From: Zanthoxylum bungeanum
Taxonomy: Eukaryota > Streptophyta > Magnoliopsida > Sapindales > Rutaceae
DNA: 64,000 nt
Assembly: GCA_019454045.1 (NCBI GenBank)
Contig: SKCR01038859.1
Location: 124,001-188,000 of the forward strand
Direction: 5' to 3'
Part shown: positions 35,133 through 59,494 of the stretch, piece by piece
Layout of the letters: each line of letters begins with the position of its first letter
How positions within the stretch are numbered: position 1 is the stretch's first letter
Notes under the pieces: generated by a model
The model's database searches: none
Told to the model about the DNA's origin: nothing
Seen by the model: the letters and a program-made list of their open reading frames with translations, nothing else
Position numbers and translations under genes: made by a program

Positions 35133-35313
35133 GTATTCTTTAATTTTGTCAAAGGCTTATTGACATTGTATATTCCACTCCATGGGTTGGTCTTTCCTCA
35201 ATAGCTTGAAGATGAGCTCACATACTAATGTCATCTTGGCAATGAACCTACTGATATACTAGATTTTCCCAAAAAAAGCTCTAACTTCCTTTTCTATCTT
35301 CGGTGCGGGCATC

Positions 35314-36027: not shown

Positions 36028-36106
36028 ATCTTCATAGAACTAGGCGAATACTTATATATATTTTATTAATATTTTCTCTAATTCTTTCCGCTCATTAGAG
36101 GTAACC

Positions 36107-36598
36107 TCACTTGCAATTAAATTTCCTTGGGGTTTTCACATGTACCAAGATTAAATGCATTTGCTTTGTTGAGTTAATGTCAAATGTGCTCATGTCTTGT
36201 ATGTTATGATATCGACTAACAGGAAAAGACTCGAACAAGTAAGCAAAATAAATGTCTTTATTATTAATAAATGCAAGATTACAATCAAATAAATCAGGAA
36301 AATAAACATCTGCATCATTTGTAGCCTTGTCTTCTTCCGTCTTCTTTCTTTCTTCGAGCATCAGATTCTCCAACTGCAATAGTTCTTCTTCCCATTTATC
36401 TTCCTCTTTTACAATTTCCTCTGTCTGTGGTTCCTTACCCATTACATCTTTGAAGATCTCGAATCCTAGTACTATGATCTCATTGACTTCTACGAGTTCA
36501 GGCTCTTCTTGATACCCTGTGGCTTTCATAAAGTATTCCGTCAGCTTCATCCTTTTTACCTCCTCTTCATCACTACTGCTATCCCATATCCCATGCAA
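36107..36598 (-). pseudogene. Element H acidic pol segment upstream of RT
   Basis: A 163-residue open stretch that is strongly acidic (EEE, KEEDKWEEE) in its middle part. In Tat-type polyproteins a poorly conserved acidic linker lies between protease and RT, and a stop-interrupted continuation runs from here into the RT N-terminus (36028-36106). I see no protease motif. Its assignment rests on position and composition only. Confidence 0.5.
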
Positions 36599-36939
36599 GA
36601 AGCTTGGTGGTTGAGAGTTTGGAGGACAAAGCTTTCAGGCAAGCAGGAGTTGATCATGTAGATGGGTATTGGAGCGGAGTGGTAGTTGGATAGAGGGTTT
36701 CTATGTGTGGGTTGTTCTTTTTTCCAGGTCGGATGGATCTCATGCCTAAGGTAGGTGCAGTTGTCAGTTTTGTGGTCTTTTTACTGATAGTAGTGATAGT
36801 GTAGGTTTAGGTAAAGGTGGAGTGGCATACGGTTTGGAAGTGGTTTAGGTTCTAAGGATTTTATGAATCCTTACCTCTTCTTGACAAGTCTTCATTCTTC
36901 TCTAACCTAACAGAAATCTGTGATGGCTTTTAAGACAGG
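36599..36939 (-). other. Element H upstream region, no domain seen
   Basis: I see no Gag or protease motif on the minus strand here. It probably represents decayed gag. Confidence 0.4.
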
Positions 36940-39991: not shown

Positions 39992-40319
39992 TGTTTGGAC
40001 CTCCTAAGCCCATCAAGGCTTTCATACAAGTTGGCCCGTTATCATTTTAAAGTGTTCAATCAGATTATCGCAAGGTATAATAATTATTTTATTTCTTTAT
40101 AAATTATCAAATAAGTAAATTCCCATGTACTTTTTGCCATACTTTCATACACACATAAGACAAGTAACAATCAATTCGTTGTGCCTATAATATTCATAGG
40201 TCTTTTTGAAAAGAGAGTAATATTTTTATTCTAAAATGATATCAGAGTGCACACTTTCTGTCAATTACAGTTTATTTATTAAAAAAAAGTACCCATTTTT
40301 TTTTTATAATAATACATCT

Positions 40320-40570
40320 TTAACCCTTATAATGAGCTTTGAGTAAGTGACACTCAAACTAGTTGGCTTTAGGGCATTAGGTGTTAAGACACCCCTATAG
40401 ACTTAATTGATCGGATCTCAGTTGTCAAAAAAATATTCGACTCCCTTAAGTTTTCTCTCTAACCCATGTAACAAGCTTTGGGACAGTTACTTCCAAACTA
40501 GTTGGTCTTAAGGCAATAAGTGTTAAAACACCCATACAGACTTAATTGTTCGAGTTAGAGAAGGTACGAA
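40320..40570. repeat. Duplicated ~120-bp module in the F2 3' region
   Basis: Two diverged units contain CAAACTAGTTGG and GTGTTAA(G/A)ACACCC, near 40355-40400 and 40495-40535. The same two-unit arrangement occurs in element F at 54400-54620. Confidence 0.82.
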
Positions 40571-40599
40571 ATTGAACTTATTCACACATATATTTCTTT

Positions 40600-40790
40600 T
40601 ACAAACTCAAGCTCTACCATTTTACGTGAATAATCACTGCTTACTGAGGCAAGATGTCTGGTTACTAAGTAAAAACTTGATTTGTTATTATTATCATTTT
40701 TTAAACTAACTAAAGATCAACCGTTTTACGTGAACAATCACTGCTTGTGAGGCAAGATGTCTAGTTACTAAGTAAAAGCTTCATTAATGT
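40600..40790. repeat. Second duplicated ~110-bp module in F2
   Basis: ACCATTTTACGTGAATAATC and its variant recur near 40616 and 40728. Each is followed by a GAGGCAAGATGTCT word. It has no counterpart in element F that I can see. Confidence 0.82.
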
Positions 40791-41270
40791 TTTTTAAAAA
40801 GGAAAACACAAATTCCACTACCCTTAGGTGCTACTGCCAACAAACTAGAGAACTGAATATTATAAAATTTTCACTTACAACCCACGATCATATGTTACCG
40901 TGTATGTTGATAGTACTAGTCAAATGAGCATATTAATATCAAATTTAATTAATATTATGGAGAATTCATAAATTTAAATGATAAAAAAAGACATGAACAA
41001 AAATAACTTGTTACGAATTACTTTCAGGTACGTCTTAGGAGTGAAAACTCCTTACACTGCCATCTCTGAACAACAATTCCACTTGCTTAGTCAAAAATTT
41101 ATTGTTGGTTTGTGTATAGTTTTTTGAATAAAACACAAAAGAAAAATCAACACAAAAATATTTTTTTTACACACAAAATAACAAAAAAATAAAAAATAAT
41201 GTTTAAAAAACACAAAAATAAAATATTTTTTAAAAAAAAACACAAGAAATGAAAACTATCTAGTCAACTA

Positions 41271-41283
41271 TCCCCTCCCCCCA
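41271..41283 (-). other. Polypurine tract downstream of LOG-like gene in F2
   Basis: On the minus strand it reads GGGGGGAGGGGA after TTTGT. A homologous tract, TTGGGGGAGGGAAA, follows the LOG-like gene in element F (53951-53964). Athila-type elements commonly have such a tract after pol. Confidence 0.75.
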
Positions 41284-41425
41284 AACAAATTGAGACGTTG
41301 TCCACAATATCTGAATAAAAAGAAGTAGAGTTTAGAAGATATCGTCTGGTTAGTGTTGAAAAAACAATTGACTCAACAACAATACTCTTTAACCCAAAAA
41401 AATAATTATAGATTGGGATTCATAT

Positions 41426-42052
41426 CCACTATATGCTTCTTGCCATGATTATTATACGACCAGTCCAACTTGGAAAGAAATGGGTCAATTTTAGGTTCAT
41501 AGGCTAACAATTAGTCGATTAATTCAGTAGCTTTTCCTGCAGTAAGAACAATATCTTTTTCCGATTTTGAAATGAACCCGAGTTTTTTAGCATCCTCAAG
41601 AAATACTAAAAGAAAATCAAAAAACAATTATCTATATTAAGTAGTCTAATGGATTTTCGGTGAATATTCAAATTTGCCCATGACGCAATTGTGAATATTT
41701 CTTCCAACGTGCCCAACCAACGTGGTAAAGCAATAAAAACATCAGCATGAATGATAATTTCCCTAAGTTATTCAGACATACCCAGACAATGTATTTTTCT
41801 CCATTCGATAAGATTTTTGTCTGCTAATGTTTTTGGGATGATTCTTAAAACTTGATTATCTCATTCTTACATGGCCTTTGAAACACATCCCATCAATCCA
41901 TGATTGCCACCGTCATATACTAAATGCATGTTTCTTTCTGCCATAAATCTACCCAATTCTATTACAGCGTTAACATATTTTGGTTTAGTTCCAAAACTAG
42001 ATTCATAAAATAAACAGATATTAGTGACTCATCGTCTTAAAGTTTTCTCCAT
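41426..42052 (-). pseudogene. LOG-like (cytokinin riboside phosphohydrolase family) pseudogene in F2
   Basis: About 209 codons on the minus strand from an ATG at 42052, close to the usual 210-230 residues of plant LOG proteins. LOG enzymes release active cytokinin bases from riboside 5'-monophosphates. Readable blocks in order: NMHLVY followed by DGGNHGLMG (family LVYGG.SIGLMG), RIIPKTLADK (VIPK.L), GMSE, HADVFIALP followed by RWLGTLEE, WANLNIH, and a C-terminal EPKIDPFLSKLDW resembling the family end that contains SKLNW. The signature PGG.GT..E is damaged (PRW for PGG). Several stops and at least one frameshift are present. There are no introns. It lies between the pol remnant and a polypurine tract of the Athila-like element, at the same place as the copy at 53203-53853. 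Confidence 0.82.
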
Positions 42053-42104
42053 TTTGCTCTCTCTTATTTGGATATATCGAAAAGAGAAATGATGAGCTGT
42101 AGTT

Positions 42105-42140
42105 ATAGATCCTGAAAAAGGGTGAGCAATAAAAGCACTA
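42105..42140 (-). promoter_or_regulatory. Possible 3' splice site upstream of the F2 LOG-like gene
   Basis: The minus strand reads CTCACCCTTTTTCAGG, with the CAG at 42114-42112, 60 bases before the shared ATG. The homologous place in element F reads CTCACTTTTTTCAGG. A pyrimidine tract plus CAG, kept in both copies, fits a splice acceptor; this is an inference. Confidence 0.5.
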
Positions 42141-42630
42141 TTAATTATAAAATGATAATTATCAGATAAATAGTAAAGTAGATCGTGAAAGTCAAAAAGT
42201 TTAGATACCGTCGGTAAATTAAAGCAAAGGAAATCAAAGAAATAAATTGAAAGAAAATGTACCGGTAGTTGTGATCGTGGCTCATATCTTCCTCTAGTTT
42301 TATGTTTAGTAACGGCTTGAAAGCCCTTTATGGGTCGGAGATATGCTTCCCATCCAATTTTCTTACAAATTGGCAAATACGACCTTTCAATGTCAGATTC
42401 CCGTGACTATATTATTATTTTTCTTTTTGAAATTATGTATGTAAGTTGTGAGTCAATCTATCAAGTCCATTATGATGCGTCTCAAGAGTCGTTGATATAT
42501 TATCTATTGACTCCTTACTCAAGCCTTCTCTAACGAATTGAATTTTTTCTTCATGATTATTAGACATCATTCCTAAAGAACAACAATGAGTGTTGCACGT
42601 CCAACGTGCGCATTTATAATAAACACCTAA

Positions 42631-42969
42631 TTATTTAGCTCTTCTTTTCTTAGTATATGGGATTTTCTCCAAACTAGGAATGTAAGAGATGAATGAATCA
42701 ATAAATTTAAGAACCCATGTTTTAATCACTTCTTTCTTGTAAAGGTTTAATATTTTTTTAAGTGATCGACGTGTCCTAACATTATCTTTGAAATGTATTC
42801 TACGTATGCATTTTAAAAGATTTTTATCTTTTATATCTTTTAAAGTCCATCCAATTCCTTTTTTATGTTCACTAAACGCATTTAACAACTTACTTTCTTG
42901 ATCGCTTGTAAGGGAAGAAGAAATTACCACATGGTAAGTTTGTTTATTTCTAAGAAATGTATATTTCAA
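42631..42969 (-). pseudogene. F2 reverse transcriptase N-terminal fragment (Athila type)
   Basis: A 112-residue open stretch contains KYTFLRNKQTYHVVISSSLT and SDQESKLLNAFSEHKKGIGW, followed by RRIHFKDNVRTRR. This is the conserved entry to the RT of Athila-type polyproteins. After KEVIK the sequence no longer matches RT and stops. Catalytic blocks (VPKKGG, YMDD) are absent. 42053-42630 holds no recognised domain; its last 130 bp are homologous to 53020-53150 of element F. Confidence 0.85.
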
Positions 42970-43249
42970 TCCTTCAAGTAAAGTCTTTAATTTTAATTTG
43001 TGTGCTTCTTCATGTTTCTCTTCTTCAAGTCTTCCTAGTTCCTCAAAATTTTATTTCTTTCTATCGACTTCTAGTACCTATGTAGAATCAAGTAAAGAAA
43101 AATCATTAGAAAAATCTTAATCTAATTGCGTACTTGATCCAAGAAAATTAGTTGTACAAATTTACATGGGTTCATATTTACTCCATTGAATATGTTCTTC
43201 CAAAATTAGTTCAATTGGTTCCATGTTCTCATTCACAGTCCTTATCATA

Positions 43250-44000
43250 GGGTTGCTCGCACATGTTAAAAATATTAAACTCCAATGTCATATTGTCAAA
43301 GGAAAAATTCATGATTCCATTCCTGCAATTAATAAAAACATTAGCTGTTCTTAAAAATGGATGACCAAGTATTACAGGAATTGGCTTGTAACTATCTGCA
43401 ACAGGTTATGTTTCTAAGACAATAAAATCCACATCATATATGAATTTATCGACTTGTAATAACACATTTTCCATAATTCTTTTTAGATACATCAAGTGAT
43501 CTATCAACAAGTAAAAGAGTAGTTGAAGTTGGTTTTAACTCTCCAATATTAAATTATTGGTAAATCAAAAATGGAAGCAAGTCGACACTAGCTCCAAGAT
43601 CAAGCAATGCATGTTCAATTTTATGATTTCAAATAATACATGAAATAGTTGGACAACCAAGGCCCTTGTATTTCAATGCATTGTCGGTTGAGAGAATGGA
43701 ACTTACTTGTTCAATTAGAAAAGCTTTCTTTCTTACATGATTTATTCTGTTAATATGTACAAGTCTTTCAAAAATTTGGCATAAAATGGTATCTGTTTGA
43801 TGGCATCTAACAAATAAGTATTGACCTTCAGCTGTTTGAATATTTCATATCTTTTTGAGGAATGATTCAATTTTTATATTTTCAATGCTTGAGGAAATGA
43901 AGGTGCATGAGAAAAATCATTATCATCAACGATAAGTAATGGTTCATCAACCCATTCATTTCCCTCTGAAGTTGACTTTTTTCAACTTCACGAGGTTTAA
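43250..44000 (-). pseudogene. F2 Gag C-terminus and aspartic protease remnant
   Basis: The protease active-site motif LLDLGASVDLLPF is readable at about 43575-43620 with its Asp intact, followed by VENVLLQVDKFIYDVDFIVL and PIPVILGHPFLRTANVF (normally LGRPFL). Before it, a decayed segment has AFLIEQVSSI and GCPTISCII words that precede the protease in Athila-type polyproteins. Several stops and one or two shifts are present. The wording differs from the protease of element F (DLGVSVNLMP, ILGRPFLATC), so the two elements are not recent copies of each other. Confidence 0.85.
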
Positions 44001-44118: not shown

Positions 44119-44317
44119 TGATGAGTGGTAAATGTATCACTATTTTCCACTCATTTGACCTAATATTTTATATATTTTCTTGATTTTTGTGAATATTTTG
44201 ATTTGTTTTATGTTATTTTATAGATAAATAAAGTTTTTCGAGGCTAAAACAATGAAAAACAGACAAAATGGCAAAACTGTCATTTAGCGCGTCGCGACAA
44301 GCACTCTACGTCGCAGC

Positions 44318-44480
44318 CGCTAACGTGCACCGGAGTCTGATAACGTGCTCCAAGACATGTGTCACATTCAGAGAAGATTTACTAAAATACACTGTGCTAA
44401 CGTGCGCCGTTTGCTAATGTGCTCCGAAAATCTGCTAATGTGCGCTTGCCACATGTCAACATCTTAGGAAATCTGTTAAC
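44318..44480. repeat. Cluster of TAACGTGC words in element F LTR
   Basis: At least six variants of (C)TAACGTGC(G/T)CC are spaced 15-60 bp apart. They also occur in the 3' LTR at 55319-55470. Confidence 0.78.
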
Positions 44481-46144
44481 GTGCATCGCGCCATGTGTCA
44501 CCATCACATGCTGTCGATAATCATCATCGCCACATCAGCACGATTATTGAATTAATCTATCATCCCCTGCCACGTGTCAGCCGATCCGCGTTAGGCACCC
44601 TAAATCACAATGTGTAGCGACGCGCAATGGCTACGTGTCTTGACTCGCCAAGCCTATTGGCTCGAAATTTCAGTTGTAATCTCATACTTTTCTCTATGTA
44701 ATTCCTTAAGAATACTAGAGGATTGTATCTTGCTTGTTTATTTATAGCTTTCAGTAATTAATTTCCGCTTTTGCACTTTCTTTTCTTTACTTTTCACTTT
44801 TTAATTTATGCAATTTACTTTTACGCACAATATTTTCCTTTCTTTACTTTTTAGCAATTTACTTTTCAGTAATGAGGAGGTAACTTCGCCTTGTTGGGGT
44901 GAAAGGTAAAACTTTTATTACTAATAGTTAGATTAATCTTCCTTAAATATAATATATAAACTAGTTAAAATCTGACTTAATGAGGATACCGCTATATTGA
45001 TCGGTTGGTAATTATTAAAATTGGTTTTAACCTGACTAAACTGGATACCGCCTGGTTGGTCGATTTCTAATTAATTAATAATTTAACTTAATCAGGATAC
45101 CGCATATATGACTGGTTGGTAATTATCACGCAAAGTTAATATATTATATTAAGAGAGATATCTAAAATAATAGTGATAAAAGTGGATTTTTTAACCCAAA
45201 GTATTTTCTTTTTTGTATTTTTATATTTTTACTTTCCAGCATTTACTTTTCAATATTTGCTTTATGTCTTTTATTATTTTTTAAGTTTTTACTAGCCGTA
45301 AATATGTGTAGTAAATAAGCCCATTATTTGGGATTGTGAAGAATTCCAATATCAACGGTTTATAAGAGGTTATTTTATAGTTGGGTAATATAAAGGTTTA
45401 CTTACTAAGTCTTAAAGTTAATGCTTATTGTTAACTGGCCACTAATAAGATTGATCAGGTTACTTAAAATAAACTTGACAGAGGAATTTTAGGTTTCAGC
45501 CTTAGACTTAATAGCTCACGATCTTTCTTGAGGATAGATAACTGTAACATCCCCGATCTGAGAGATGTTACCTGCAGAGGATATCAGTACTAACCTCATA
45601 GCCCCTTACTTCCTAACTGTATTCTAAGCTATTCAAATGCAATGTCATGTATGGGGACCATAACCCAACTTATTAATATAAAGTACTTTTGTTACTCATA
45701 ACTATATACTCAAAACTTACTTTCTTTACAAACATTAACAGACACTCATAATGATTATAAGACACTAATGAATGCATACAACTTTACTTTGACACTGACT
45801 GGACTCTCATGCTATCTGACTCTCTGCTAGTGGACTTCATCCCCAGTGACTACATCAGTATCCGTCCTCCCTAGTACGTCCTCCTGAATTTCCTGTAAAA
45901 ATACAAATACTAGGGTAGGGGGTTAGATCGATGTACGATCTAAGTAAGAACATTTGGTTTTATAACTGAAATCTCATAAAATAGCTTTATAAGAAAACTG
46001 GTTTGTTGCTTTAAAATTCTGAATTTCTTACAAAACTGCTGGATCTGGAAACTTTCTTTTCTAAATCTCTTTCTGAAAACTGTGACTAAAATCTAAATTT
46101 TTTTCTGAAAAACTGTATCTCTATCTAAAAAATAACTGTACGTA

Positions 46145-46375
46145 TGAGGGTGTTACGTATCGCCGTCCTCCTATACGCCTAACTGGAGCCAACAATGCAA
46201 ATCCATGACTTTGGGGCGTTATGTAACACCATCCCCCAAAGCATGCCACCAATGTCTCTAAAACTGGTGGTCTTGGGGTGTTAAGTATCGTCGTCCCCCA
46301 AAACTGAAGCTGGGGGTACGGATCTATGCTACCACAAACTGGGGTCTAAGGGCGTTACATATCGTCGTCCTCCTA
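46145..46375. repeat. Four-fold TTACGTAT hairpin module in LTR S2
   Basis: Diverged copies lie near 46147, 46214, 46275 and 46350, with G-run and C-run arms around the TACGTA core (some cores mutated to TATGTAA or TAAGTAT). It matches 38125-38372. Confidence 0.82.
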
Positions 46376-48340
46376 GCCCAGCTCGAGGATATGAGAGCAT
46401 CCCCTCAGTCCTCCACATGTGCACATGTCACTATATCCGTCAATTCCAAACTATATCAAGTTGCATACTTGGGTGATTTTTTCCCTCATGCCCCAAAAAA
46501 CATGAAAACCATATTTTAAATCTTAAAACTGCAAATATTGTTTTCTGAAAATCATTTCCTTTCTTAAAGCATAACTATAAATAACAATAACTAAAAAGAA
46601 AAGCTTTTAACACCATAAAGCGTAAAATGTAAGTCTGATATGAAAATACGAAATGAAAATCAAGTAAAAGAGAAAGTATCCACTCACTGGTTCAGAATTT
46701 TCTTATGACACTTTGCGATGGTGGCGAAATCGTATCTCTTGGAGATAATCTAGAATTAGCAAAATTCGTTAGTACCAAGGTTGCGAATTATATCATTTCT
46801 TAATAAAATTTGTTCATTATTCATGTTAACTCATACTTACTACGTTACTAATATTTTAGAGTAGTCTAATAATTTTTATTAAGCTCGTTCGAGGATTTCA
46901 CAAGCTACTTCATAAAACTCCATATTCTGCCATCTATCCAGAAAGTTTTAGTGCGCCTACAGTGACTTTGAAAATTTGGTGTGCTAAATCGGGATTGAAT
47001 TTGGCCCTAAAATTTTAATAAAATACTCGCTTATGTGTCTACTTTATGTTGGATTTTACAGATAGCAGTTTTGATTCCTAGAACGCAAGTTATGGACTGA
47101 AGTTCGGGGGTTGTGCGGCTGGAAAAACTGGGCACAGGGGCAGCAGATAGTCTGACTTCAAAAATTCGGTCTGGTCTCATCTTAAGTCAAAAATTCTACA
47201 TTTTGGATATGTTACTACTTTATATGTCTAGTTTATGCAAAAATTTACGCTTCATCAATCGGATATCAGAAACATAACTTATAACCAATTCTTCCCAGCC
47301 TGTCCGGAAAACATCCTAAACCAACATCTCCTGTAACTTTATTATTTCGTCTTCTTTCTAATTCCATCAATCCAACAAACCCCAACAGAATTTTAACCAT
47401 TTTAATCACTATTTATAACATGTGAATTGTGTTTATTTTCTTCAATTAATTGGAGTGTGGCATTATATCGAACACTTGGTGTGCGGCATGCCTAAATCCC
47501 CCCATTCTTACAAAACAATACTTAAAACATCATAATACACCCTATTCCTCATAAACTAAATCATCATTTCATCAACAACCAACTTTCAATCAATTACATA
47601 TACTTCATGTAATTAAACCCAAAACTTAATAATTTTCAATCCATATTTTAATTCAAACAATAATCAATCCCCAAATCAAATACCACATCCACAAAACATT
47701 CTCAAGCTAATACAACATTTAGTTTATCATTATAGCACACTTCTAAAATTCATCATCAATCCTCATCATCCAAATCAAATTAACAAACTTGGATAGCAAA
47801 TCCAAAATTTACCCAACACCCATTTCTTCTTCACAAATCATCTAAAGTCCATTTCATAACAATACTTTCATGCTATAACCCAATATATAAAACATTATCT
47901 TACACTCCATTTAACATACATCAATCTTCCAATTTATCAATAATTCAATTATTTATACACCAAACCACTTACTAATCCCAAAACTACATAACCCATTTTA
48001 TTACTTCTAATTTCATATCCTTAACTAGTCTCAAGCTTAGGAGTTTTAAATCAAATCTTCAAACAAATTTTACTATAACAACAATTTTCAATCATGCTTC
48101 TATCATCCTTGAATCATTAAAATTCATAAATTTAAAAATTTGGGTTAAAAGCTCTTACCTTATTTATTATTGTTTCTTTCTCCTTCCATGCCTCTTAATA
48201 TTGCCAAGCTCTTCTCTATTTCTTTTCTTCTTCCTCTTCTTCTCTTCTTCTTCTTTTTCTTCTCTTCTTCTTCTTTTTTTTCTCTTCCCTCTTTTTTCTT
48301 TCTTACGTATTTTTCTTTCCTTTGATTTGTAAATAGCACT

Positions 48341-48356
48341 CCCTTTATATAGTGGG
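48341..48356 (-). promoter_or_regulatory. TATA box of LTR S2
   Basis: The minus strand reads CCCACTATATAAAGGG about 420 bp from the TGTAAC start of that strand, a normal U3 distance. LTR G has CCCTCTATAAATAGGG at the matching place. Confidence 0.7.
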
Positions 48357-49285
48357 GTGCCTTAGATATTTGGAAGTTTGTGAAAAAGTATAGAGAAATC
48401 TAGAAAGTTTGAGATTTCTCCTTTTAACCCCGAAATTACTATTCATATATATTTTAACTTGTGTTTTTGACCCGGTTCTGGTCCGAATTTGGGAAAATAT
48501 TTAACGCAGAAGTTGTAGGTCTCAATCTTAGGTTTTCAAAGATATAAAATTCATAAAAATCAGAGATCATATGAAAAAGTTATTCCCCAAATACTATGGG
48601 CGGTTCAACGGAAACACGGTACAGTCTCATCCCGGGACTTCGATAAATTTACCAATAGTCCCTAAAATCATCTCATGAATATGTTTGAGCCTTAACATAA
48701 TTTATTCTTCATGCCTTCGTCCCGTTCGTAATAGTATTACTGTAGGCAGTAGTAAAACTACTGGTCATTACAATAACCCTTTAATAGATTTCCTTACAGG
48801 ATAGACATATACCTGTTGGGCGGGGGGGTAGCCACAATTAGAACTTAATCTTAATGAATTCAGGTAACCTGGTTGACATAGACATATAGTTTAATTGGGT
48901 TACACTGGGTATTTACATCTGGCCATCCACATAAGCTTTTGCAGAATTTCGTGTTTCGGGTTAGTAAACTAATATATTACACAAATGTAAAATAACCACT
49001 TCATCTTTTAAAAAGCTATTGGAATAATTCACAACCCTGGATAGTTTCTTAATATTGAATTTTCTTTAATCTACTTTCGCGCCTTTTTATTTATTTGTTT
49101 TAAATTCAAAGTCACAATTCAGATCACCATCAAATCAAATAATCAATCCATTAGATACTTGTAATAATTTGACTTCATAAATTAATAGCTTAGGTATTAA
49201 GTTCTCGTGGGATCGATACTTTTCATACTACTTGAACGATACGTGCGCTTGCACTATACGCATGTGAATACGCCGGTCAAGTTTT

Positions 49286-49303
49286 TGGCGCCGTTGTTGG
49301 GGA
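49286..49303 (+). other. Primer-binding site of element F (tRNA-Asp)
   Basis: TGGCGCCGTTGTTGGGGA differs by one base from the complement of the plant tRNA-Asp 3' end used by Athila/Tat elements. It is six bases after the LTR. Confidence 0.88.
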
Positions 49304-49520
49304 CTTATTTATCTTCCACTATTAGTTTTGGAGTTAGATACCTTTACTTGTATCTAATTCCTTTTTACTTATTTTTATTATTTTTCTTGTGTTTCAGGTT
49401 CTCAAACCCTACATGAGACGAACTAGAAGCTTTGAAATCCGACCGCTTGACCTAAAGATTGAAAGAACCATTAGATAGTTGAGAAGGGAAAGGCGAGAAG
49501 GCTAAGAAGCAATTGTTAAC

Positions 49521-50876
49521 ATGGAACCTGAACCTTTAGAAGTTTCACCACCAATTCCCATTCGAGACAGAACCATTCCGGTGGTTGACGGCTTCATTTC
49601 CTGTATTGTACTTCCTCCCTTACCAGCAAATGCGTGTGACATCAAAACATACATTCAGATGATACAGAAGTCAGTTCAGTTTTGGGAGAATGTAACTGAA
49701 GATCCTAATGCCCACATTAGAAACTTCAAGGAAGTTTGCGACACTTTCAATTACAACCGAGCAGTTGAAGAAGCAATGAGACTGCGTGTTCTTCCATATT
49801 CCCTGAAAGACAAAGCTAAAGCTTTGCTACATTCAGTACCAGCCGGTTCCATCATAACTTGGAACACTCTAGCCACCAAATGTCTTGCAAAGTACTTTCC
49901 ACCAGCCACAACTGCAAAGCTGAGGAATGACATCACATCTTTTCTGCAACAAGACTTAGAATCCCTCTGTGAAGCTTGGGAAAGGTATAAAGATTTACTC
50001 CGAAAATTTCCTCACCATGAGATTCCAAAATGGATACAAGTCCAAACTTTCTATAATGGACTTTCTGGAATAATGAGAACCACAATCGATGCTATTGCTA
50101 GAGGAGCTCTAATGGAAAAATGAGAATATCAAGCCCGGGACCTAATTGAAGAAATAGCCAACAATAATTCCTTGTGGCCAACAAAAAGAAGCATGATCCA
50201 ACGAATTGTTAGAATTTATTAAGTTGGAGCCAACATAGCAGTGAATGCCAAGCTGTATCAGATATGTAAATTCATGTAAACTTTCAACATAAAAGGTAAT
50301 ACTGGATCCACAGGTTCACCATATGGAGGAGTACCAAAACCAAACCAACATGAAGAGACGGTGAATTATGCCAACAATTTCAATAGATAAGGAAACAATC
50401 CATAGTCAAACACCTACAACCCAAGGTGGAGGAATCATCCCAATTTCGCCTGGAGCAACAATTCAGGGGAAAAGAACTATCCACCACCTAGATTCCAACA
50501 ACAGAACAAAGGCCACGAGCATGAAAAAGAACAAAGAATAGCAGAAGTGCTAGCTCAGTTAAAAAAATACTATGCTATATTTCAGATCCAATCAGCTTCC
50601 ATTAAAGCACTTAAGAATCAAATTGGACAACTGGCTAATGCTCAGAGTTACAGGTCACCAGGAAATCTTCCCAGCAATACAGAACCAAATCCAAGGAACC
50701 GAGGGAAGGAGCAATATCAAGCCATAACTTTGGAAAACGGTACAGAAATCAACAAAGATATTGGATTCAAGGCATCCATTAAGGAAGTTCCAAAAGATGC
50801 AGTTCCATATATGGAGGAAAAAGAAGCAAAGGAAAAAGAACCAGAAAAAATCACTCTACCTCCACGTTTTCCATAG
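49521..50876 (+). pseudogene. Element F gag remnant (Athila type)
   Basis: A first open stretch of 200 codons (49521-50123) carries the Athila capsid block: EDPNAHIRNFKEVCDTF, LRVLPYSLKDKAKALLHSVP, KCLAKYFPPATTAKLRNDI and a tail with WIQVQTFYNGL. A TGA replaces the next codon. 50124-50546 is the continuation with several stops but readable NPRWRNHPNFAW. 50547-50876 has the coiled-coil-like and linker part with QIGQLANAQ and LPSNTEPNPRNRGKEQ. No zinc knuckle is seen, which is usual for Athila Gag. Confidence 0.92.
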
Positions 50877-51451
50877 CGTCTCCTGAAAAACAAACTAGAC
50901 AAGCAGTTTGCTCGATTATTGGAGGTGTTCAAAAAGCTGCATATCAACATCCCATTTGCAGAAGCCTTGGAAGAAATGCCCAGCTATGTTAAATTCATGA
51001 AATATATTCTTTCACAAAAGTGGAGATTGGGAGATTATGAGACAGTAGCATTGACGGAAGAATGCAGCGCCATCATTCAGAGGAAACTTCCCCAAAATTG
51101 AAAGATCTTGGCAGTTTCACTATCATATACACTATCGGAGAACATTACATTGGTAACACTTTATGTGATTTAGGAGTAAGTGTTAATTTAATGCCTTTTT
51201 CTATTTATAGGAAACTGTAAATAAGAGAAGTAATGCCTACCTCAGTCTCTCTACAACTTGCTGATAGAGTACTCACATTTTCGAGAGGAGTAGTTGAAGA
51301 TGTGCTGGTCAAAGTCGACAAACTCATTCTCCCAACAGATTTCATTATCCTTGATATGGAAGAAGACAAAGATATTTCTATCATCCTTGGGAGACCATTT
51401 TTGGCTACATGTATTGATGTTCAAAAAAGAGAACTAACCATGAAAGTGTAG
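50877..51451 (+). pseudogene. Element F aspartic protease remnant
   Basis: After a stop at 50874, LEVFKKLHINIPFAEALEEM continues the Athila polyprotein (50919-51101). Next comes the protease: CDLGVSVNLMP at about 51160-51195 keeps the active-site Asp, with Val for the usual Ala. ILGRPFLATC lies at about 51390-51420. Stops at about 51100, 51222 and 51450 break the frame. Confidence 0.88.
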
Positions 51452-51484
51452 GACCAAGAAGTTACCTTCAATGTTTTCAAAGCC

Positions 51485-52140
51485 ATGAAATACACGAGTG
51501 AAGAAAAAGAGGAATGTTTCAGAATTGATGTTGAAAAACTACCTCTACCAATAACTATCAAAGTGATTCGGAGTTTTCTCGGACATGCTGGCTTTTACAA
51601 TAGATTTATCAAAGACTTCTCAAAGATTGCTAAACCTCTGTGCAATCTTCTGGAGAAAGATTTTCTTTTCAATTTCACCAGAGAATGCCACGAAGCTTTT
51701 GAGATCTTAAAACAGAAGCTGGTCTCTACCCCCATCATAGTAGCACCTGACTGGACCCTTCCATTTGAGGTGATGTGCGATGCTAGTGATTTTACTGTAG
51801 GTGCAGTTTTAGGACAACGCAAAGCAAAGATTTTCCATACCATTTACTACTCCAGCAGAACTCTAAATGAAGCTCAACTCAACTACACAACAACTAAAAA
51901 TGAGTTGTTTGCAGTTGTGTTCGCTTTTGATAAATTCTGGTGGTGGTCTACACAAATTATTCAGCAATCAAATACTTGATCGTGAAGAAAAATGACAAAC
52001 CCAGATTGATCCGTTGGATACTTCTACTGCAAGAATTTGATGTAGAGATCCGAGACTAGAAATAAATAGAAAACCAAGCAACAGATTATTTATCAAGGCT
52101 CAAGAATAGAGAAACAGCTGGCAAAGAACTGACAATCAAA
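51485..52140 (+). pseudogene. Element F RT C-terminus and RNase H, RT core deleted
   Basis: After KAMKYTSEEKEECFRIDV the reading passes directly to EKLPLPITIKVIRSFLGHAG, which in Athila pol lies just after the RT palm and fingers. The palm with YMDD is therefore missing while the frame is kept. RNase H follows with FEVMCDASDFTVGAVLGQR (catalytic Asp present) and [19 protein letters not shown] (catalytic Glu present). A shift at about 51950 and a stop near 52060 lead to decayed [12 protein letters not shown] and DYLSRL words. Confidence 0.9.
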
Positions 52141-52189: not shown

Positions 52190-52995
52190 ATTGGTATGCT
52201 GACTATGTTAACTAAATAGTGTCAAGAAATGGCCGTTGGAATGGACAACTCAACAACGGAAGAAATTCTTCAAAGAAGTCAAGCGTTATGTCTGGGATAA
52301 GCCGTACCTGTTCAAACGCTATGCTGATCAATTACTGAGACAACGTGTTCCACATGAGGAGGTCAATAGTGTCTTGCAACATTGTCACTCGTCATCATAC
52401 GATGGACACTTCAGCGGGAATAAAATTACAGTCAAAGTCTTACAATCAGGTTTGTTCTGGCCCACTCTTTTTAAAGATGCTTATCTTTGTGCTCTTCAAT
52501 GTGACAGGTGCCAGAGAACAGGAAATATTTCAAGGAGAAATGAAGGACCTCTGTAAAATATTCTGGAAGTGGAAATATTTGATGTATATGGGATTGACTT
52601 TATGGGACCCTCTGTTCCATCATTTGGAAACCTGTATATAGTAGTTGCAGTAGACTACGTCTCCAAATGGGTTGAAGCAATTGTACTACCATCCAATGAT
52701 TCAAAAGTGGTGATAAAATTCCTTTAAAAGAATATTTTCACTCGTTTCGGAACACCTTGGGCTATTATTAGCAATGGTGCCACACGTTTCTTCAACAAAT
52801 ACTTCGATGGAATCCTATCCAAATACGGAGTTACTCATAAAGTTACCACTGCCTATCATCCACAGTCAAATGGACAGGTTGAAGTTTCGAACAGGGAGAT
52901 CAAAAGAATCTTGGAGAGAACCGTTGGATCAACAAGGAGGGACTGGTCTATAAAATTGGATGATGCATTATGGGCCTACCAGACAGCTGACAAAT
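52190..52995 (+). pseudogene. Element F integrase, truncated and mutated
   Basis: The zinc-binding segment HCHSSSYDGHFSGNKI...CDRCQ is intact at about 52378-52515. After a TAA, the catalytic core is readable: [15 protein letters not shown] (first Asp present), [12 protein letters not shown] where the second catalytic Asp is Asn, and [20 protein letters not shown] (Glu present). The frame ends after DALWAYQTA, short of the C-terminal part, where non-coding sequence starts. The missing Asp and the stops make it inactive. Confidence 0.92.
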
Positions 52996-53019
52996 TTGTC
53001 TTTTACTAATAATTGTAAT

Positions 53020-53152
53020 TTTTTTTTGTTATTTTCTTTTATTTTCTCCGACAAGATCCAGGCTTTTTGACCTTCACGATTTATTTTACTATTTAACTAA
53101 TAATTATCATTTAGTAGGTACTAGTGCTACTATTATTACTCACTTTTTTCAG
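53020..53152 (+). promoter_or_regulatory. Conserved leader with possible 3' splice site before the LOG-like gene
   Basis: This stretch is homologous to 42112-42240 of F2 on the other strand. It ends CTCACTTTTTTCAGG with CAG at 53150-53152. Both copies keep the pyrimidine tract and CAG at the same distance (50-60 bases) before the shared ATG. This fits splicing of a downstream ORF from the genomic transcript, as proposed for env-like ORFs of Athila elements; no donor is identified. Confidence 0.5.
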
Positions 53153-53202
53153 GTGTTATGAATTCAACTCATCATTGCATTTTTGAAGGCATCCAAATAA
53201 AA

Positions 53203-53853
53203 ATGGAAGCCACTTCAAAAAGACGAGTTGTAAATATCTATATCTTTTATGTTACTAGTATTGGTACTAAGCCACAATATGTGGCGGCAGCACAGGAATT
53301 GAGACGAGTCTTACCTGAAAAGAATATGCACTTAGTATATGGCGGTGTTAATCTTGGACTAATGGGGATCATTTCAAAGACCGTATAGGATAGAGGCAGC
53401 CAAGTCTTGGGAATCATCCCAAAATCTTTATTGGAGGTGAATCTGATAGGACCATCAAACAGAGAGAAACTAATTGTGGCAGGTATGTCTGAACAACTGG
53501 TAGAAATGATTAATCGTGCTGATGCTTTTATTGCTTTGCCAGGTGGCTTGGGTACAATGGAAGAAATCTTTACTGTAATATCTTGGGCGAACTTGAACAT
53601 ACACTAGAAACCAATTAAACTGTTCAATGGATATGGATTTTATGATTTTTTGTGTATTTCTTGATGATGTCCAGAGAAATTGGTTTGTGTCAAAACCTTT
53701 AAAAAACTCCTCTTTACTGCCAGAACTGCCCTAGATTTAATTGACCAAATCTTAGCATTTGAACCAAAAATTGACCCTATCCTTTCCAAGATAAACTAGT
53801 TCGATAATGATCGTGGTAACAAGCGTCAGATAAATCTATATCTTAACCTTTAA
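53203..53853 (+). pseudogene. LOG-like (cytokinin riboside phosphohydrolase family) pseudogene in element F
   Basis: 217 codons from the ATG shared with F2, which I prefer to an upstream ATG at 53158 that F2 lacks. Blocks by codon: LVYGG (44-48), GLMG (52-55), GIIPKSL (70-76), GMSE (94-97), ADAFIALPGGLGTMEE (106-121) containing the family signature PGG.GT..E, WANLNIH (128-134), and a C-terminal EPKIDPILSKIN. Family members hydrolyse cytokinin riboside monophosphates in the cytosol and nucleus. The usual MH.RK motif before the signature is replaced by MSEQL, so a conserved Arg is missing. Stops lie at codons 62 and 135 and later, with a short shifted stretch near codons 150-165. There are no introns although plant LOG genes are usually multi-exonic. 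It sits between integrase and the polypurine tract. Confidence 0.9.
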
Positions 53854-53947
53854 ATTTTCTTTGTAGATATAGAATTTCAGCTAACCAGGTACTATCTTCT
53901 AAACTCATCTTCTACTTTTTAAGACAATGGGGACAACATCACATTTA

Positions 53948-53964
53948 GATTTGGGGGAGGGAAA
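53948..53964 (+). other. Internal polypurine tract of element F
   Basis: GATTTGGGGGAGGGAAA, after the word GACAATGGGGACAAC. It is homologous to 41271-41283 of F2. It lies 1.2 kb before the 3' LTR; a second purine-rich stretch (GGTTTGGTGGTGTGA, about 55160-55174) adjoins the LTR and is the more likely LTR-proximal primer. Confidence 0.7.
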
Positions 53965-55172
53965 TATTTGATTAGTATCTTGTAATTATTCTGTTATTTT
54001 TATTTGATTTTTAGTTAAAATTTTCAAAATATTCAAAAAAATTGAAAAACTTTACAAAAATTTTAAAAAAAATATATTTTATATTTTTATGTTTTTAACA
54101 TGATTAATCAGGTGAAATTGGTGTGAGATAGTTGTGTAAGGAATTTTCACTCCTAAGACGTATCTCAACCTATTTCGGAATAAGTTAATTTTTGTTTATT
54201 TCCTTTTGAATTATTTAATTTGTGAATTCTCCAAAATATTGACTAAAATGAATCTTTATATGCTCAATTGATAGGTATTATCAACATACAAGGTAACATA
54301 CGGAAATGAGTTGTAATTTACGAGTTTGTAATATTATGTGCTCTAGTTTAATTGGAGGAATCATCTAAAAAGTAATGGGATAAAAAAATGTTGAGATCCG
54401 ATTTATTAAGTTTGTATTGGTGTTTTAACACCTAATTCCCTAAAATCAACTGGTTTGGAAGCCACTGGCCCAAAGTTTGCTACATGGATCAAAGATGTTA
54501 GAAAAATATATATATATCTGAAGTCCGAGTAATTAAGTCCGTAGGGGTGTCTTGACACCTGCTGCCCTAAAGTCAACTGGTTTGGAAATCGCTAGCCTAA
54601 AGCTCGCTATATGGATATAAAATATTATATATAAATAAAAAAAAATCAGAAAAAACAGAAAAATATTTCATTGCCTAAACAAAGGTGTGAATTCTGATAT
54701 AACTTTAGGATAAAAATATTACTCTCTTTTCAACTACACTTGTGAATATTGTGGGCACAATGACTTGATTAATACTTGTTAGCTGTGTATATGGAGAATA
54801 GTAAAAATAATCGGATAATTTACTTATTCGGTAATTTAAAAAGAAAGAAAACAACTCTAAACTTAGATAAGAAGTTTCACCTGATTAGCACTAACTCGTT
54901 TACTCTATTTTTCTCTTGTCTTTTGCTTTTTTGTGCATTAGTTTTACTATCTTTTTACTTTTGTGAAACATTTGTGGGTATCGTTGCTATAAGCCCTCAC
55001 GAGACTACAACTCGTCCACTAGGGAAACCTAGGGGTTCAAAGGCTTGTTGCATATGCTAAATGAAACTGTGATCCCTACGAAAGTGGCTTAGTTTAATGT
55101 TTATTTTAAAGATGTTTATGTTATTTTATTTTTTTTTGCTCGAGGACTAGCAAAATTTTAGGTTTGGTGGTG
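53965..55172 (+). other. Element F 3' non-coding region
   Basis: AT-rich, without recognised protein. 54060-54890 is homologous to 40070-41060 of F2 on the other strand, including GTGTAAGGAATTTTCACTCC near 54134. 54400-54620 is a two-unit tandem duplication (CAACTGGTTTGGAA word in each). An open stretch at 54776-55060 has a hydrophobic segment but is not shared with F2, so I do not call a gene. Confidence 0.7.
54400..54620. repeat. Two-unit tandem duplication (~125 bp) in element F 3' region
   Basis: The units share GGTGT(T/C)TTAACACCT-like and TCAACTGGTTTGGAA words at about 54418-54475 and 54543-54590. F2 has the same pair at 40320-40570. Confidence 0.85.
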
Positions 55173-57052
55173 TGATATTTTGATGTGTTTTGTGTTATTT
55201 TGTAGATAAATAAAGTTTCAGGACTATCTGTAATCAATTCAGGCTAAAACAGTGAAAAACAGACAAAATGGCAAAACTATCATTTGGTGCGTCGTGACAC
55301 GCACTCTGCATCGCGATCGCTAACGTGCGTCGGAGTCCATTAACTTGAGCTAGGACATGTGTCACATTCAGATAAGATTTGCTAAAATAAGCCGTGCTCA
55401 CGTGCGCTGAATCTACTAACATGTGTCTGCCACATGTCAACATCTCAGGAAATCTGCTAACGTGCGTCGTGCCACATGTCACCATCACATGCTGCCGACA
55501 ATCATCATCACCACATCAGCATAATTATTGAATTAATCTTTCATCCCCTGCCACGTGTCAGCCGATCCGCGTTTGGCGCTGCAAATCATGGCGTGTCACA
55601 AAGCATAATGGCTACACATCGTGACGCGCCAAGCCTATTGGTGCCTATAAATGAGCTCGAAATTTCAGTTGTAATATCATACTTTTCTCTATGTAATTCA
55701 TTAAGAATACTAGAGGATTGTATCTTGTTTGTTTATTTAAAGCTTTCAGAAATTAATTTCTGCTTTTGCACTTTTTTTTCTTTCCTTTTCACTCTTTAAT
55801 TTCTGCAATTTACTTTTACGCACAATATTTTCCTTTCTTTACTTTTCAGCAATTTACTTTTCAGTAATGAGGAGGTAACTCCCCCTTACTGAGGTGAAAG
55901 GTAAAATTTTTATTTCTAATATTTAGATTAATCTCCCTTAAATATAATATATAAACTAGTTAAAACCTGACTTAATGAGGATATCGTTATATTGGTCGGT
56001 TGGTAATTATTAAAATTGGTTTTAACCTGACTAAACTGGATACCGCCTGGTTGGTCGGTTGGTAATTAATTATTAATTTGACTTAATCAGGATAGCGCCT
56101 ATATGGCTGGTTGGTAATTATCACTCAAAGTTAATATATTATATTAAGGAAGATATCTAAAATAGTAGTGATAAAAGTGGATCATTTAACCTGCAGCATT
56201 TTCTTTTATTGTACTTTTACATTTTTACTTTCCAGCATTTACTTTTCCACATTTACTTTTCAGTATTTACTTTATGTCTTTTATTTTATTTATGTTTTTA
56301 TTAGCCGTAAATATGTGTCGTAACTAAGCCCGTTATCTGGGGTTGTGAAGAATTCCAATATCACCGGTTTATAAGGGGTTATTTTATAGTTTGGGTAATA
56401 TAAAAGAATTACTTATTAAATCTTAAGCTTAATGCTGCTTGTTAATCGGCCACTAATAAGATTGATCAGGTAAACTTATAATAAACTTAACAAGGAATTT
56501 TAGGTTTCAACCTTATACTTAATAGCCCACGATCTTCATGGAGGATAGATAACCCTTTAATAGATTTTCTTACAGGATAAACATATACATGTCGGAGGGG
56601 TAGCCACAATTAGAACTTAATCTTAATGAATTCAGGTAACTTGGTTGACACAGATATATGGTTTAATTGGGTTACATTGGGTATTTACATCTGACCATCG
56701 ACAGAGACTTTTGCAGAATTTTGTGTTCCAAGTCAGTAAACTAATATATTACACAAATGTAAAATAACCACTTCATCTTTTAAAAAGATATTAGAATAAT
56801 TCACAACCCTCGATAGTTTCTTAATATTGAATTTTCTTTAATCTACTTTTGCCGCCTTTTTATTTATTTATTTTAAATTCAAAGTCACAATTCAGATCAC
56901 CATCCAATCAAACAATCAATCCAATTGATACTTGTAATAATTTGACATCATAAATTAATAGCTTAGGTATTAAGTCCTCATGGGATAGATAATTTTTATA
57001 CTATTTGAACGATACATGCACTTGCGTTATATGCGTGTGAATACGTCGGTCA
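55173..57052 (+). repeat. Element F 3' LTR (1.88 kb)
   Basis: It matches the 5' LTR from 44187 onward. It lacks about 65 bp of the 5' end and has a small insertion near 55220. It carries the empty target site of solo LTR S2 near 56541-56560. It ends GGTCA, followed by AATAT. Confidence 0.9.
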
Positions 57053-57649
57053 AATATATCGTACTATTCCCCTAAGTCTCTGTCCTTCTAAATATAAACT
57101 AAGCTATTCTCTTTTCCCAAATCAAATTCTTATTTAAGGAACCAATGTCCAAACTTGACAACATGGAAAACAAATTTATTATTAATAACTGTAAACTTAT
57201 AAACACTTGTTTTGTAATGACTACACAACACCCAAATACTAATACATGACTTCTGCTTAACACTGACTGGACACTCATTGACTCTGACTTGAACTAGTGG
57301 ACTCCATATCCTAATGACTACATCAGTATCCGTCCTTTCAAGCTCGTCCTCCGAGAATACTTGTAAAAAGAGAACTCTGGAGAGGGGTTTAGATCGCTAT
57401 ACGATCTAAGTGAGTGGATAAAAAACTGAAATACTAATATAAATCATTTGGTTTTAAAATCAAGATTTCCATAAATAACTTATATGAAAACTCTCTTTTT
57501 GAAAACTTCGCTTGAAATCTCTTTTGTAAAACTTAATCTTTCTGAAAACTACTTTCTGAAATCTGTCTATAAAATCTAATCTCTGAAATTCTTTTTTTGA
57601 AAATCCGATGTATAAATGCTGGGTTGGATCTGAAAAACTTGACGTTTGG

Positions 57650-57935
57650 GAGCGTTACGTATCGCCGTCTCTCCATACGCCTAACTAGAGCCAGGACTGC
57701 AAAACCATGACTTTGGGAGATTACATATCACCATCCCCCAAAGAATGCCACTTCCGTACCTGAAACTGGTGGTCTTGGGGCATTACGTATTGCCGTCCCC
57801 CAAGCCACAAAAACTAAACTGGGGGTGCGGATCTATGCTACCATACAAGCTCTGAAACTAAGATCTAGGGGCATCTGTCATCCTTAGTCCTGAACTAAGA
57901 TCTGAGGTATTACGTATCCCTGTCCCCCCAATCCT
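57650..57935. repeat. Four-fold TTACGTAT hairpin module in LTR G
   Basis: Diverged copies near 57651, 57715, 57777 and 57903, each with CATTACGTAT-like cores and C-runs. Third occurrence of the module in the window. Confidence 0.82.
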
Positions 57936-59164
57936 CTACATATACACATGTTCTCTTTCCATCAGTTTCAAACTGTATCAAGTTATATACTGAGGTGGGT
58001 TTTTCCCCATGTCTCGAAAAACAGAAAACATATTCTGAAAACACTTCTTTCTCAAATATAACTTAAATCATCAGCTTTTATGTGACCATTGTAATAAAAT
58101 GATCTATCGCCCTAAGGCATAAAACGTAAGTCTGTTGCATAAATAACAAATGAAAATCAATTAAAAGAGTAGTGTCCACCTCACAGTTAGAATCTCTGGC
58201 TGGAGTTATACCGCTTCGTCGAATGAGATCGCAACTCCTATAATGGTCTATAAGTGATAACTTGATATGAGATAAGTTCTGGAACTAGGCTAAACTGCTA
58301 AATTCAAATACGTAATATCGTAACTTGGTATATTATACTTGTCCTAAGATGAAATATGTGCATACGAACTGATACGAGACCCTAAGGATGGTCTCTAACA
58401 CGCTAGGGTGGTTTAAAATAATTTTTGGGGAATTTTGTGCCATCCGTCGTGACGCAAACCCTTGTGCGTCACGATGCGTAGCATCCAGAGGCGTGCCATC
58501 ATTTTCTTCTTGTGCATTGCGACGTAAATCCCTTTTGCATCGCGACATGAAATAGAATTCCAGGATTCTGTTCTTTATCTCCAATCCAACTCACCCAATT
58601 GCACTTTCTACCATTTCTATACTAAAACCATAACCTAAAACATCATCATACATCATCTTCACACATTAAAATTCGAGTTAACATCCTCACCACTTCTAGA
58701 ACAATATCTACACACAAACAATTCAATTAATCTTCAATTCCATATTCAAGACAATATATCATCCCCCAATAATTCCTTAACCTCACACTTCTTATTTTTG
58801 ACCAATCCTTTAAAAATTTCTATATTTGGGTATTTAACCCAATAATCATCTTCCTTACTTATCAATTACCAATATTCAATTGTTTTTTTATGCCAACATT
58901 CCTATTCTACCATTATGCTCCCAAAATTCAACAAATCAAATTTTTGGGTAAAGCTTTCTTACCTTTCTCTTCTTGCTTTTCTTCATTATCTAAACCCTCC
59001 ATTGATGCTCATCTTCTTATTATTTGCTTCCTTTCTCATTTCGTCTATCTTTTTTTTCTTTTATTCTATTTTTCTTCTTTTCTTCTCTTCTTCCCCTTCT
59101 TTCTTTCACGATTTTTCCTTCATTTTTCTACTCAATTTTTCACTTTTGGAATGAGGAAATAGTG

Positions 59165-59180
59165 CCCTATTTATAGAGGG
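59165..59180 (-). promoter_or_regulatory. TATA box of LTR G
   Basis: The minus strand reads CCCTCTATAAATAGGG. It is positionally equivalent to the TATA box in S2, and a purine-rich 5' leader follows it (pyrimidine run on the plus strand). Confidence 0.7.
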
Positions 59181-59494
59181 AGGAGTTGATTTTTTGTGAT
59201 GAAATTTAGAGGTTAGGATTAAGCCACCTCATCTTTTATAGACCAATCCCGAAATTTACTGTAGCTACCTCTGATTTATCAATTTTTGACTCATTTCGGT
59301 TTCAAATTTGGAACAATTCCCAATGTGAAAGTTGTAGGTCTCGGTCTTAGCTTTCCGATGATATAAAATTCATAAAAATCAAAGATTTTACGAAAAGTTT
59401 ACGGCCTGAACACCAAAGGTTTTTCGAGGTGTAACAAAAACTAAGTTCTGCGTCGAAATTTCAAGAAATCATCTAATTGTCCCGATGCTATTTT

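Follow-up and report, generated by a model that had tools for sequence, protein, structure and literature searches.

A decayed LOG-family reading frame in an Athila-like LTR retrotransposon of Zanthoxylum bungeanum

The LOG-family frame and its element

The window analysed here, a 64,000-nucleotide stretch of the Zanthoxylum bungeanum genome (positions 124,001 to 188,000 of contig SKCR01038859.1), carries a long terminal repeat (LTR) retrotransposon, designated element F, with a decayed open reading frame (ORF) of the LOG family between its pol region and its 3' LTR, as well as a second LOG copy on the opposite strand, designated copy b (Table 1). The original prediction of a LOG-family sequence at this position was confirmed by protein and Pfam searches of the translated segment. 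Residues 1-135, with the stop entered as X, matched PF03641 at E 2.9e-20 (73.2 bits against a gathering cut-off of 27) and SLOG cluster4 at E 2.4e-11; the 72-aa piece at 53389-53607 matched PF03641 by itself (E 2.8e-18), and the pieces at 53203-53388 and 53668-53799, searched singly, gave no Pfam match. The closest solved structures by sequence were AtLOG3 (2a33, E 2.7e-38) and AtLOG8 (1ydh, E 2.4e-32), and tblastn of the window with P0001, one of the nearest relatives described below, covered 217 of 217 residues at 53203-53853 with 72% identity (E 8.9e-97). Chance similarity to LOG is ruled out by these Pfam and tblastn values. The frame holds the PGGxGTxxE motif, the catalytic Glu and an LxLxL tail that is gone from copy b, and has Gln at the position of the catalytic Arg (MSEQL). 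Its final stop is codon 217, preceded by five premature stops, and approximately residues 150 to 165 are out of register in the tblastn alignment. Because of the five stops and the register shift, the copy is dead as it stands and, as its codons read, cannot yield a full-length protein, so that the predicted single frame is not open and a working gene is not supported. In view of the pocket residues of its relatives (below), we assign the ORF to the LOG family by fold and by descent and do not count it among the cytokinin enzymes.

The expected placement of this ORF between the integrase and the polypurine tract, inside the LTRs, also held. Two LTRs bracket gag and pol, the arrangement of an LTR retrotransposon, with gag, RNase H and integrase upstream of the LOG ORF on the same strand. 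Once an insert is removed from the 5' LTR, identity between the LTRs is 89.7% across 1827 sites (Kimura two-parameter distance, K2P, 0.113), and they start with TGTGA and end with GGTCA; at usual plant rates, a K2P of 0.113 corresponds to millions of years. The primer-binding site candidate TGGCGCCGTTGTTGGGGA is presumably tRNA-Asp-like, with two mismatches. Two pieces of the protease region that were searched matched nothing in Pfam, and no RVT_1 match appeared in the Pfam search of the element F frames, the core of the reverse transcriptase (RT) being apparently missing. The integrase core (rve) remained below threshold (E 0.0011; 19.7 bits against a cut-off of 32.6), and by reading of the translations the integrase stops abruptly near 52990, ahead of the LOG leader. 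An element boundary inside the LOG segment, the mark of a host gene struck by an unrelated insertion, was looked for and none was detected in 53203-53853.

Element F is likely a member of the Athila lineage (OTA, Ty3/gypsy), as far as its sequence allows the assignment. The accessible part of PMC6317226 describes OTA elements as commonly bearing an additional ORF between pol and 3' LTR, the position that the LOG ORF occupies here, and attributes an archaeal RNase H to Tat, located in Ogre and Retand between RNase H and integrase. In element F, 232 bases separate the end of the RNase H frame (51979) from the start of the integrase frame (52212) and therefore leave no room for a further domain at that place, which is the one position covered in an element that has deletions. 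Athila elements use a primer-binding site of the tRNA-Asp type, to which the candidate TGGCGCCGTTGTTGGGGA next to the 5' LTR may belong.

Regarding the insert in the 5' LTR, other pieces related to the TGTAACATC repeat were located at 37456-39991 (+) and 57257-59401, the duplication having been checked at 45543-48772 only. A tandem LTR array that would include element F was considered and discarded, 48773-49279 being the remainder of the 5' LTR behind the insert. Additionally, the 3' noncoding block includes a 104-bp tandem duplication (54397-54500 and 54524-54627, 77% identical) with matching sequence in copy b.

Table 1. Features of element F and of copy b in the window.
Feature	Position	Strand	Evidence or remark
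5' LTR of element F, interrupted by insert 45543-48772	44188..49279	+	pairs with 55171-57052
3,230-bp solo-LTR-like insert TGTAACATC...ATTACA in 5' LTR	45543..48772		ATAAC duplication at 45538-45542 and 48773-48777
Primer-binding site candidate TGGCGCCGTTGTTGGGGA	49286..49303	+	sequence, 6 nt past LTR end
gag open frame	49506..50123	+	PF03732 E 2.2e-18 (49506-50120)
Protease region pieces	50877..51448	+	sequence reading; 41-50% aa identity to copy b pol remnant
RT end plus RNase H	51452..51979	+	PF17919 E 1.4e-26 (51452-51976)
Integrase zinc domain and pieces of core; C-terminal end apparently missing	52212..53009	+	PF17921 E 6.2e-9 (52212-52553)
Leader common to element F and copy b	53017..53202	+	acceptor-like T-tract plus CAG at 53144-53152
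LOG-family extra ORF, decayed	53203..53853	+	Pfam, structure and tblastn matches; stops at codons 62, 135, 154, 155, 199
Purine tract GGGGGAGGGAAA 3' of LOG ORF	53953..53964	+	counterpart in copy b at 41282-41271 (-)
3' noncoding block, mostly common to copy b	54096..54854	+	holds 104-bp tandem duplication
3' LTR of element F	55171..57052	+	pairs with 44188-49279; shows uninterrupted insert site
Copy b cassette with leader, LOG ORF, purine tract and 3' block	40084..42248	-	alignment to element F
Second LOG copy (b), decayed and broken up by frameshifts	41409..42052	-	tblastn P0001 E 3.1e-48 and 1.1e-14; P0008 E 5.6e-64
Pol remnant upstream of copy b: protease region, RT N-terminal side by reading	42634..43981	-	partial match to element F; Xanthoceras P0006 linker

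A cassette shared by two elements

Self-comparison of the window aligned 53017-54349 with 42248-40842 (-) at 66.9% identity over 1434 columns, and 54405-54854 with 40546-40084 (-) at 72.2% over 474 columns. The cassette common to element F and copy b thus spans about 1.85 kb and takes in both LOG flanks, with the leader and its acceptor-like CAG, the LOG ORF, the purine tract (GGGGGAGGGAAA in element F, GGGGGGAGGGGA in copy b) and the 3' noncoding block all inside the match. Since the two copies have both flanks in common, the LOG ORF belongs to the element, in agreement with its prediction as an extra 3' sense ORF of an Athila-like Ty3/gypsy element. The homology of both flanks also disfavours separate captures, and two independent captures in the window are ruled out by the extent of the common cassette.

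Pieces of another gag-pol lie upstream of copy b. A blastn comparison of the pol of copy b with that of element F returned no significant match, and none of six pieces searched around and upstream of copy b matched Pfam. At the protein level, the matching protease pieces of the two elements are 41-50% identical and the LOG pieces 58-61%. The cassettes match but the pols hardly do, and therefore one LOG cassette stands behind two rather different pols, an arrangement that may reflect recombination between elements or an old common descent with faster change in pol. That element F acquired its cassette by recombination from another element family, and not by descent with its own pol, is a prospect we rate somewhat short of even. 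Cassettes of 67-72% DNA identity beside pols without a significant blastn match speak for it, as do the low identity of the protease pieces and an integrase that breaks off immediately before the cassette; on the other side, protease generally evolves fast (the accessible part of PMC6317226 gives higher GAG and PROT variability), the break in the integrase could be a simple deletion, and the comparison extends to two elements only.

The LOG ORFs of element F and copy b could be compared over 136 codons readable in both, after 11 of 147 had been dropped for stops or gaps. Differences at codon positions 1, 2 and 3 numbered 36, 28 and 59 (p 1.2e-4), and two 3' noncoding control stretches had no phase signal (p 0.49 and 0.58). 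Given the third-position excess and the flat noncoding controls, the ORF behaved as coding during the divergence of both lineages. The ratio of nonsynonymous to synonymous divergence (dN/dS) was 0.20 by NG86 and 0.18 by LWL85. The common leader, ORF, purine tract and 3' block, together with differences that fall mostly at third positions, argue that the gene was maintained inside replicating elements. Two stops were seen in the first 147 codons of the element F ORF, where 0.77 were expected from the LTR distance (P(>=2) 0.18), a count consistent with later, LTR-dated decay.

Relatives, catalytic residues and the prenyl pocket

Searches for relatives listed the best 120 of 1872 matches and the best 120 of 7739, the second having scored the 8000 best candidates; a search for canonical LOG proteins listed the best 120 of 7998, with the 7999 best candidates scored, and gave a canonical set that is LOG1/LOG3-like. 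The 148 relatives counted below remain of the 173 listed once 22 proteins shorter than 195 aa and the three fused gene models P0006, P0016 and P0028 are set aside. Among the matches listed, the closest proteins were P0001-P0003, from ENA contigs of 760-1296 bases, which are 217 aa long, stop-free and 70-72% identical to the element F ORF. Named relatives came from Xanthoceras sorbifolium, Populus, Reevesia pubescens, Diplodiscus trichospermus and Parasponia andersonii. Cluster sizes among these matches reached at least 205 members (P0086) and, for named ones, at least 39 (Xanthoceras P0098) and at least 29 (Reevesia P0269), where members are sequences and not copies within one genome. Retro-type alignment rows other than P0001 were 49-88% identical to it. 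Xanthoceras P0006, P0016, P0028, P0074 and P0098, multi-copy 'hypothetical proteins', resemble LOG ORFs of retrotransposons that were annotated as genes, in some cases as fusions.

A tree built from 95 database proteins, both window copies and 13 canonical LOGs grouped the retro-type proteins into one clade on a long branch (0.66; support 0.945), a grouping tested against host LOGs of the LOG1/3 and LOG8 types only. The placement of copy b was weakly supported (0.47). One Populus-like group takes in 60 of the 95 database proteins, so that counts among the relatives are not independent.

Some relatives also resemble the neighbourhood of the window copies. The Xanthoceras gene model P0006 consists of two LOG pieces joined by a linker, which matches the pol remnant beside copy b at 43897-43790 (37 columns, 59%, E 1.7e-7) and suggests that LOG accompanies a copy-b-like pol outside the window as well. 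The N-terminal extension of P0011 matched the copy b leader with 29.5 and 21.4 bits (E 1.1e-4) and the element F leader with 26.5 bits (E 0.004), where the best of 60 shuffles reached 21.0 bits; the match in the element F leader is weak alone, because the same extension scores 26.9 bits at an unrelated place, 610-672. The extension of P0010 scored 32.9 bits against the copy b leader and 24.8 bits against that of element F, and those of P0074, P0118 and P0023 matched neither leader. Two scans of IMG/VR viral contigs for relatives with context yielded none that could be confirmed (0 of 4 stretches in one, 0 of 29 in the other).

In the part of PMC4979012 that is accessible, Arg99 and Glu122 of CgLOG are proposed as catalytic residues, and Met96, His97, Lys100, Glu125 and Trp129 (CgLOG numbering) form the pocket for the prenyl group, the same in AtLOG3. 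All of these residues, as well as Thr119 and Glu121, are found in 120 of 120 canonical proteins. Among the 148 relatives, the catalytic Arg99 is kept in 135 and Glu122 in 143, next to Thr119 (143) and Glu121 (146), and two pocket residues, Met96 and Trp129, are kept in 141 and 147. The other three are usually replaced, with His97 kept in 38 relatives, Lys100 in 11 and Glu125 in 11, so that the canonical prenyl pocket is not the one most relatives carry. The exact PGGxGTxxE motif was present in 89 of 98 retro-type rows and 109 of 120 canonical rows; in at least 10 of the 11 canonical rows that lack it, the gene model seems to run into a foreign stretch after DAFIALP. P0001 is predicted to adopt the LOG fold, with a predicted local distance difference test score (pLDDT) of 86.7, a template-modelling (TM) score of 0.95 by target to AtLOG3 2a33, and a low-confidence tail at residues 203-217. 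The tail bears a basic cluster in 125 of 148 relatives versus 1 of 120 canonical proteins, and a strict LxLxL in 120 of 148 versus 0 of 120 canonical proteins of the LOG1/3 type; because the canonical set is LOG1/LOG3-like, its absence there does not exclude this tail from all host LOGs. The consensus LxLxL is that of the ethylene-responsive element binding factor-associated amphiphilic repression (EAR) motif in the accessible parts of PMC6283911 and PMC9956375, and we can only guess that the tail might act as one here.

The full canonical pocket occurs in 11 of the 148 relatives, seven of them from Xanthoceras. Ten of the 11 are in the tree, where they branch basally within the clade (a group of nine has a support of 0.29), and the node setting off the remaining relatives together with P0043 has a support of 0.875. 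Because the full-pocket relatives branch at the clade base, the pocket was probably altered after capture. The description of this ORF as 'hormone-activating' is doubtful and perhaps wrong, given the three of five prenyl-pocket residues usually replaced in the clade. It is nevertheless possible, though less likely than not, that LOG remains cytokinin-activating and that the element raises free cytokinin in the cells expressing it, since most relatives keep the catalytic Arg and Glu and 11 retain the whole pocket; the nearest relatives listed, P0001-P0005, speak against it, with Ser, Leu and Ile or Thr at the positions where 120 of 120 canonical proteins have His, Lys and Glu.

Origin of the ORF and its significance

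With good though not full confidence, we read the segment as the decayed copy of an accessory gene that Athila-like Ty3/gypsy retrotransposons captured and maintained as an additional sense ORF, placed after pol and ahead of the 3' LTR. A host LOG mRNA would have been captured long ago, at the site where other elements hold an env-like ORF, and the protein would have been translated from a spliced 3' RNA by way of the acceptor-like CAG before the ORF (53150-53152); spliced expression is described for Bagy-2 in the accessible part of PMC7264820. The product would be a nucleoside-5'-monophosphate phosphoribohydrolase of LOG fold that acts as a dimer. It would retain the catalytic Arg and Glu together with most of the phosphate loop, but its substrate pocket may have drifted from prenylated adenine nucleotides, making it an accessory enzyme of shifted substrate.

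Several observations weigh against this reading. No exact 5-bp target-site duplication was found around element F in the ranges tried, possibly a result of decay or recombination. The dS of 1.27 behind the dN/dS values is near saturation, and YN00 failed. A leader control leans to the same phase as the ORF (10, 11 and 19 differences of about 50 each, p 0.07), and the 3' control stretches, picked because they were well aligned, diverge by 21-22%, against 31% for the ORF; the 3' controls being less diverged, conservation is not confined to coding sequence. The phosphate-binding Ser19 position is Ser in 105 of 148 relatives (120 of 120 canonical). Beyond the window copies, and as far as the protein records show, element context is hinted at only by the P0006 linker and the leader-like extensions of P0010 and P0011, and Pfam found no retroelement domain on P0006. 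As a separate observation, the noncoding block at 54096-54350 differs by just 21% between the elements, below the LOG ORF, and may hold a cis-acting function.

A bolder form of the accessory-gene reading, which we regard as unlikely, is that an old rosid-wide lineage made the captured LOG a dedicated accessory protein. Catalysis would be kept and the prenyl pocket lost, so that the enzyme might act on another nucleotide, by analogy with retroviral dUTPases acting on dUTP; the new C-terminal tail (basic cluster plus LxLxL, for example KKRKLDLDLNL) might serve nuclear entry and docking to the TOPLESS co-repressor, and the cassette would move from one element family to another by recombination. 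It is quite improbable that LOG mRNA was captured by accident and rode along without any role for the element. Both window copies are broken and the 3' noncoding controls are better kept than the ORF, as expected of such a passenger, but the third-position excess and a dN/dS near 0.2, the retention of the catalytic residues in 135 and 143 of 148 relatives that include rows just 49-88% identical to P0001, and records from several plant families stand against it. A host LOG gene hit by unrelated element insertions, which the proximity of both copies in a repeat-rich window might suggest, is very improbable and was rejected in view of the flanks common to the two copies, the LTR-to-LTR bracketing with gag, RNase H and integrase upstream, and the lack of any detected element boundary in the LOG segment.

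Elsewhere in the window, several long direct repeats at 1105-31606, 75-96% identical to one another and also matching 60061-61534, form a dense nest of related repeats. Tandem arrays occupy 31984-33463, mainly of 97-bp units (7.9 copies, 81% matches at 31984-32740) along with longer variants. Frames at 34549-36634 (-) resemble another decayed Ty3/gypsy pol; of three that were searched, one matched RT (PF00078, E 7.1e-18 at 35317-35679) and two matched nothing in Pfam.

Steinbauerova reportedly noted, in a 2011 abstract, two Athila-like elements similar to LOGL4. The arrangement had been flagged as notable, but as a novelty it does not stand: in its accessible part, PMC9289625 places the YgdH domain, which occurs in LOG proteins, in consensus LTR elements of Citrus sinensis and C. 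clementina and, once a filter was disabled, of Populus trichocarpa, 'in line with' Steinbauerova 2011. Those elements share with ours a LOG-family domain in rosid Ty3/gypsy elements and differ, as far as that text describes them, in host, in the decay of the copies here and in the presence of one cassette on two elements of different pol; pocket and tail features do not come up in that text. The accessible part of PMC6317226 counts extra ORFs from 250 codons up, and a LOG ORF of 217 codons would therefore be passed over. Compared with canonical plant LOGs (AtLOG3 2a33, AtLOG8 1ydh), the fold, PGGxGTxxE and, in most relatives, the catalytic Arg and Glu are alike, whereas the relatives mostly replace His97, Lys100 and Glu125 and add the basic and LxLxL tail. 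Unlike the env-like sense ORFs that Athila, Bagy-2 and comparable elements carry, the present one encodes a LOG-fold protein. The m6A (N6-methyladenosine) demethylase domain of orchid Ty3/gypsy elements, treated in the accessible part of PMC9289625, is likewise an enzyme domain of host type that a Ty3/gypsy lineage of plants has taken up, but is a different enzyme and is called functional in that paper's title. Among the matches listed for literature on LOG, YgdH, cytokinin or EAR motifs with retrotransposons, a coverage outside which most subscription papers fall, pocket or tail features were unreported. The LOG-in-LTR-element arrangement is already in print, and the clade with a changed pocket and a new tail may be new.

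What lifts this locus above a routine repeat is an ORF that was maintained, is common to elements and belongs to a clade altered at the residues that define LOG as a cytokinin enzyme. According to the accessible part of PMC9289625, additional conserved domains are held to become fixed only rarely in plant LTR elements. Populus 'LOGL10' models and the Xanthoceras and Reevesia 'hypothetical proteins' in the clade may belong to retrotransposons instead of being hormone genes, which is a warning for annotation. As for the role of extra 3' ORFs in plant LTR elements, the LOG case offers a known fold, catalytic residues and intact, expressible relatives, and that role thereby becomes testable.
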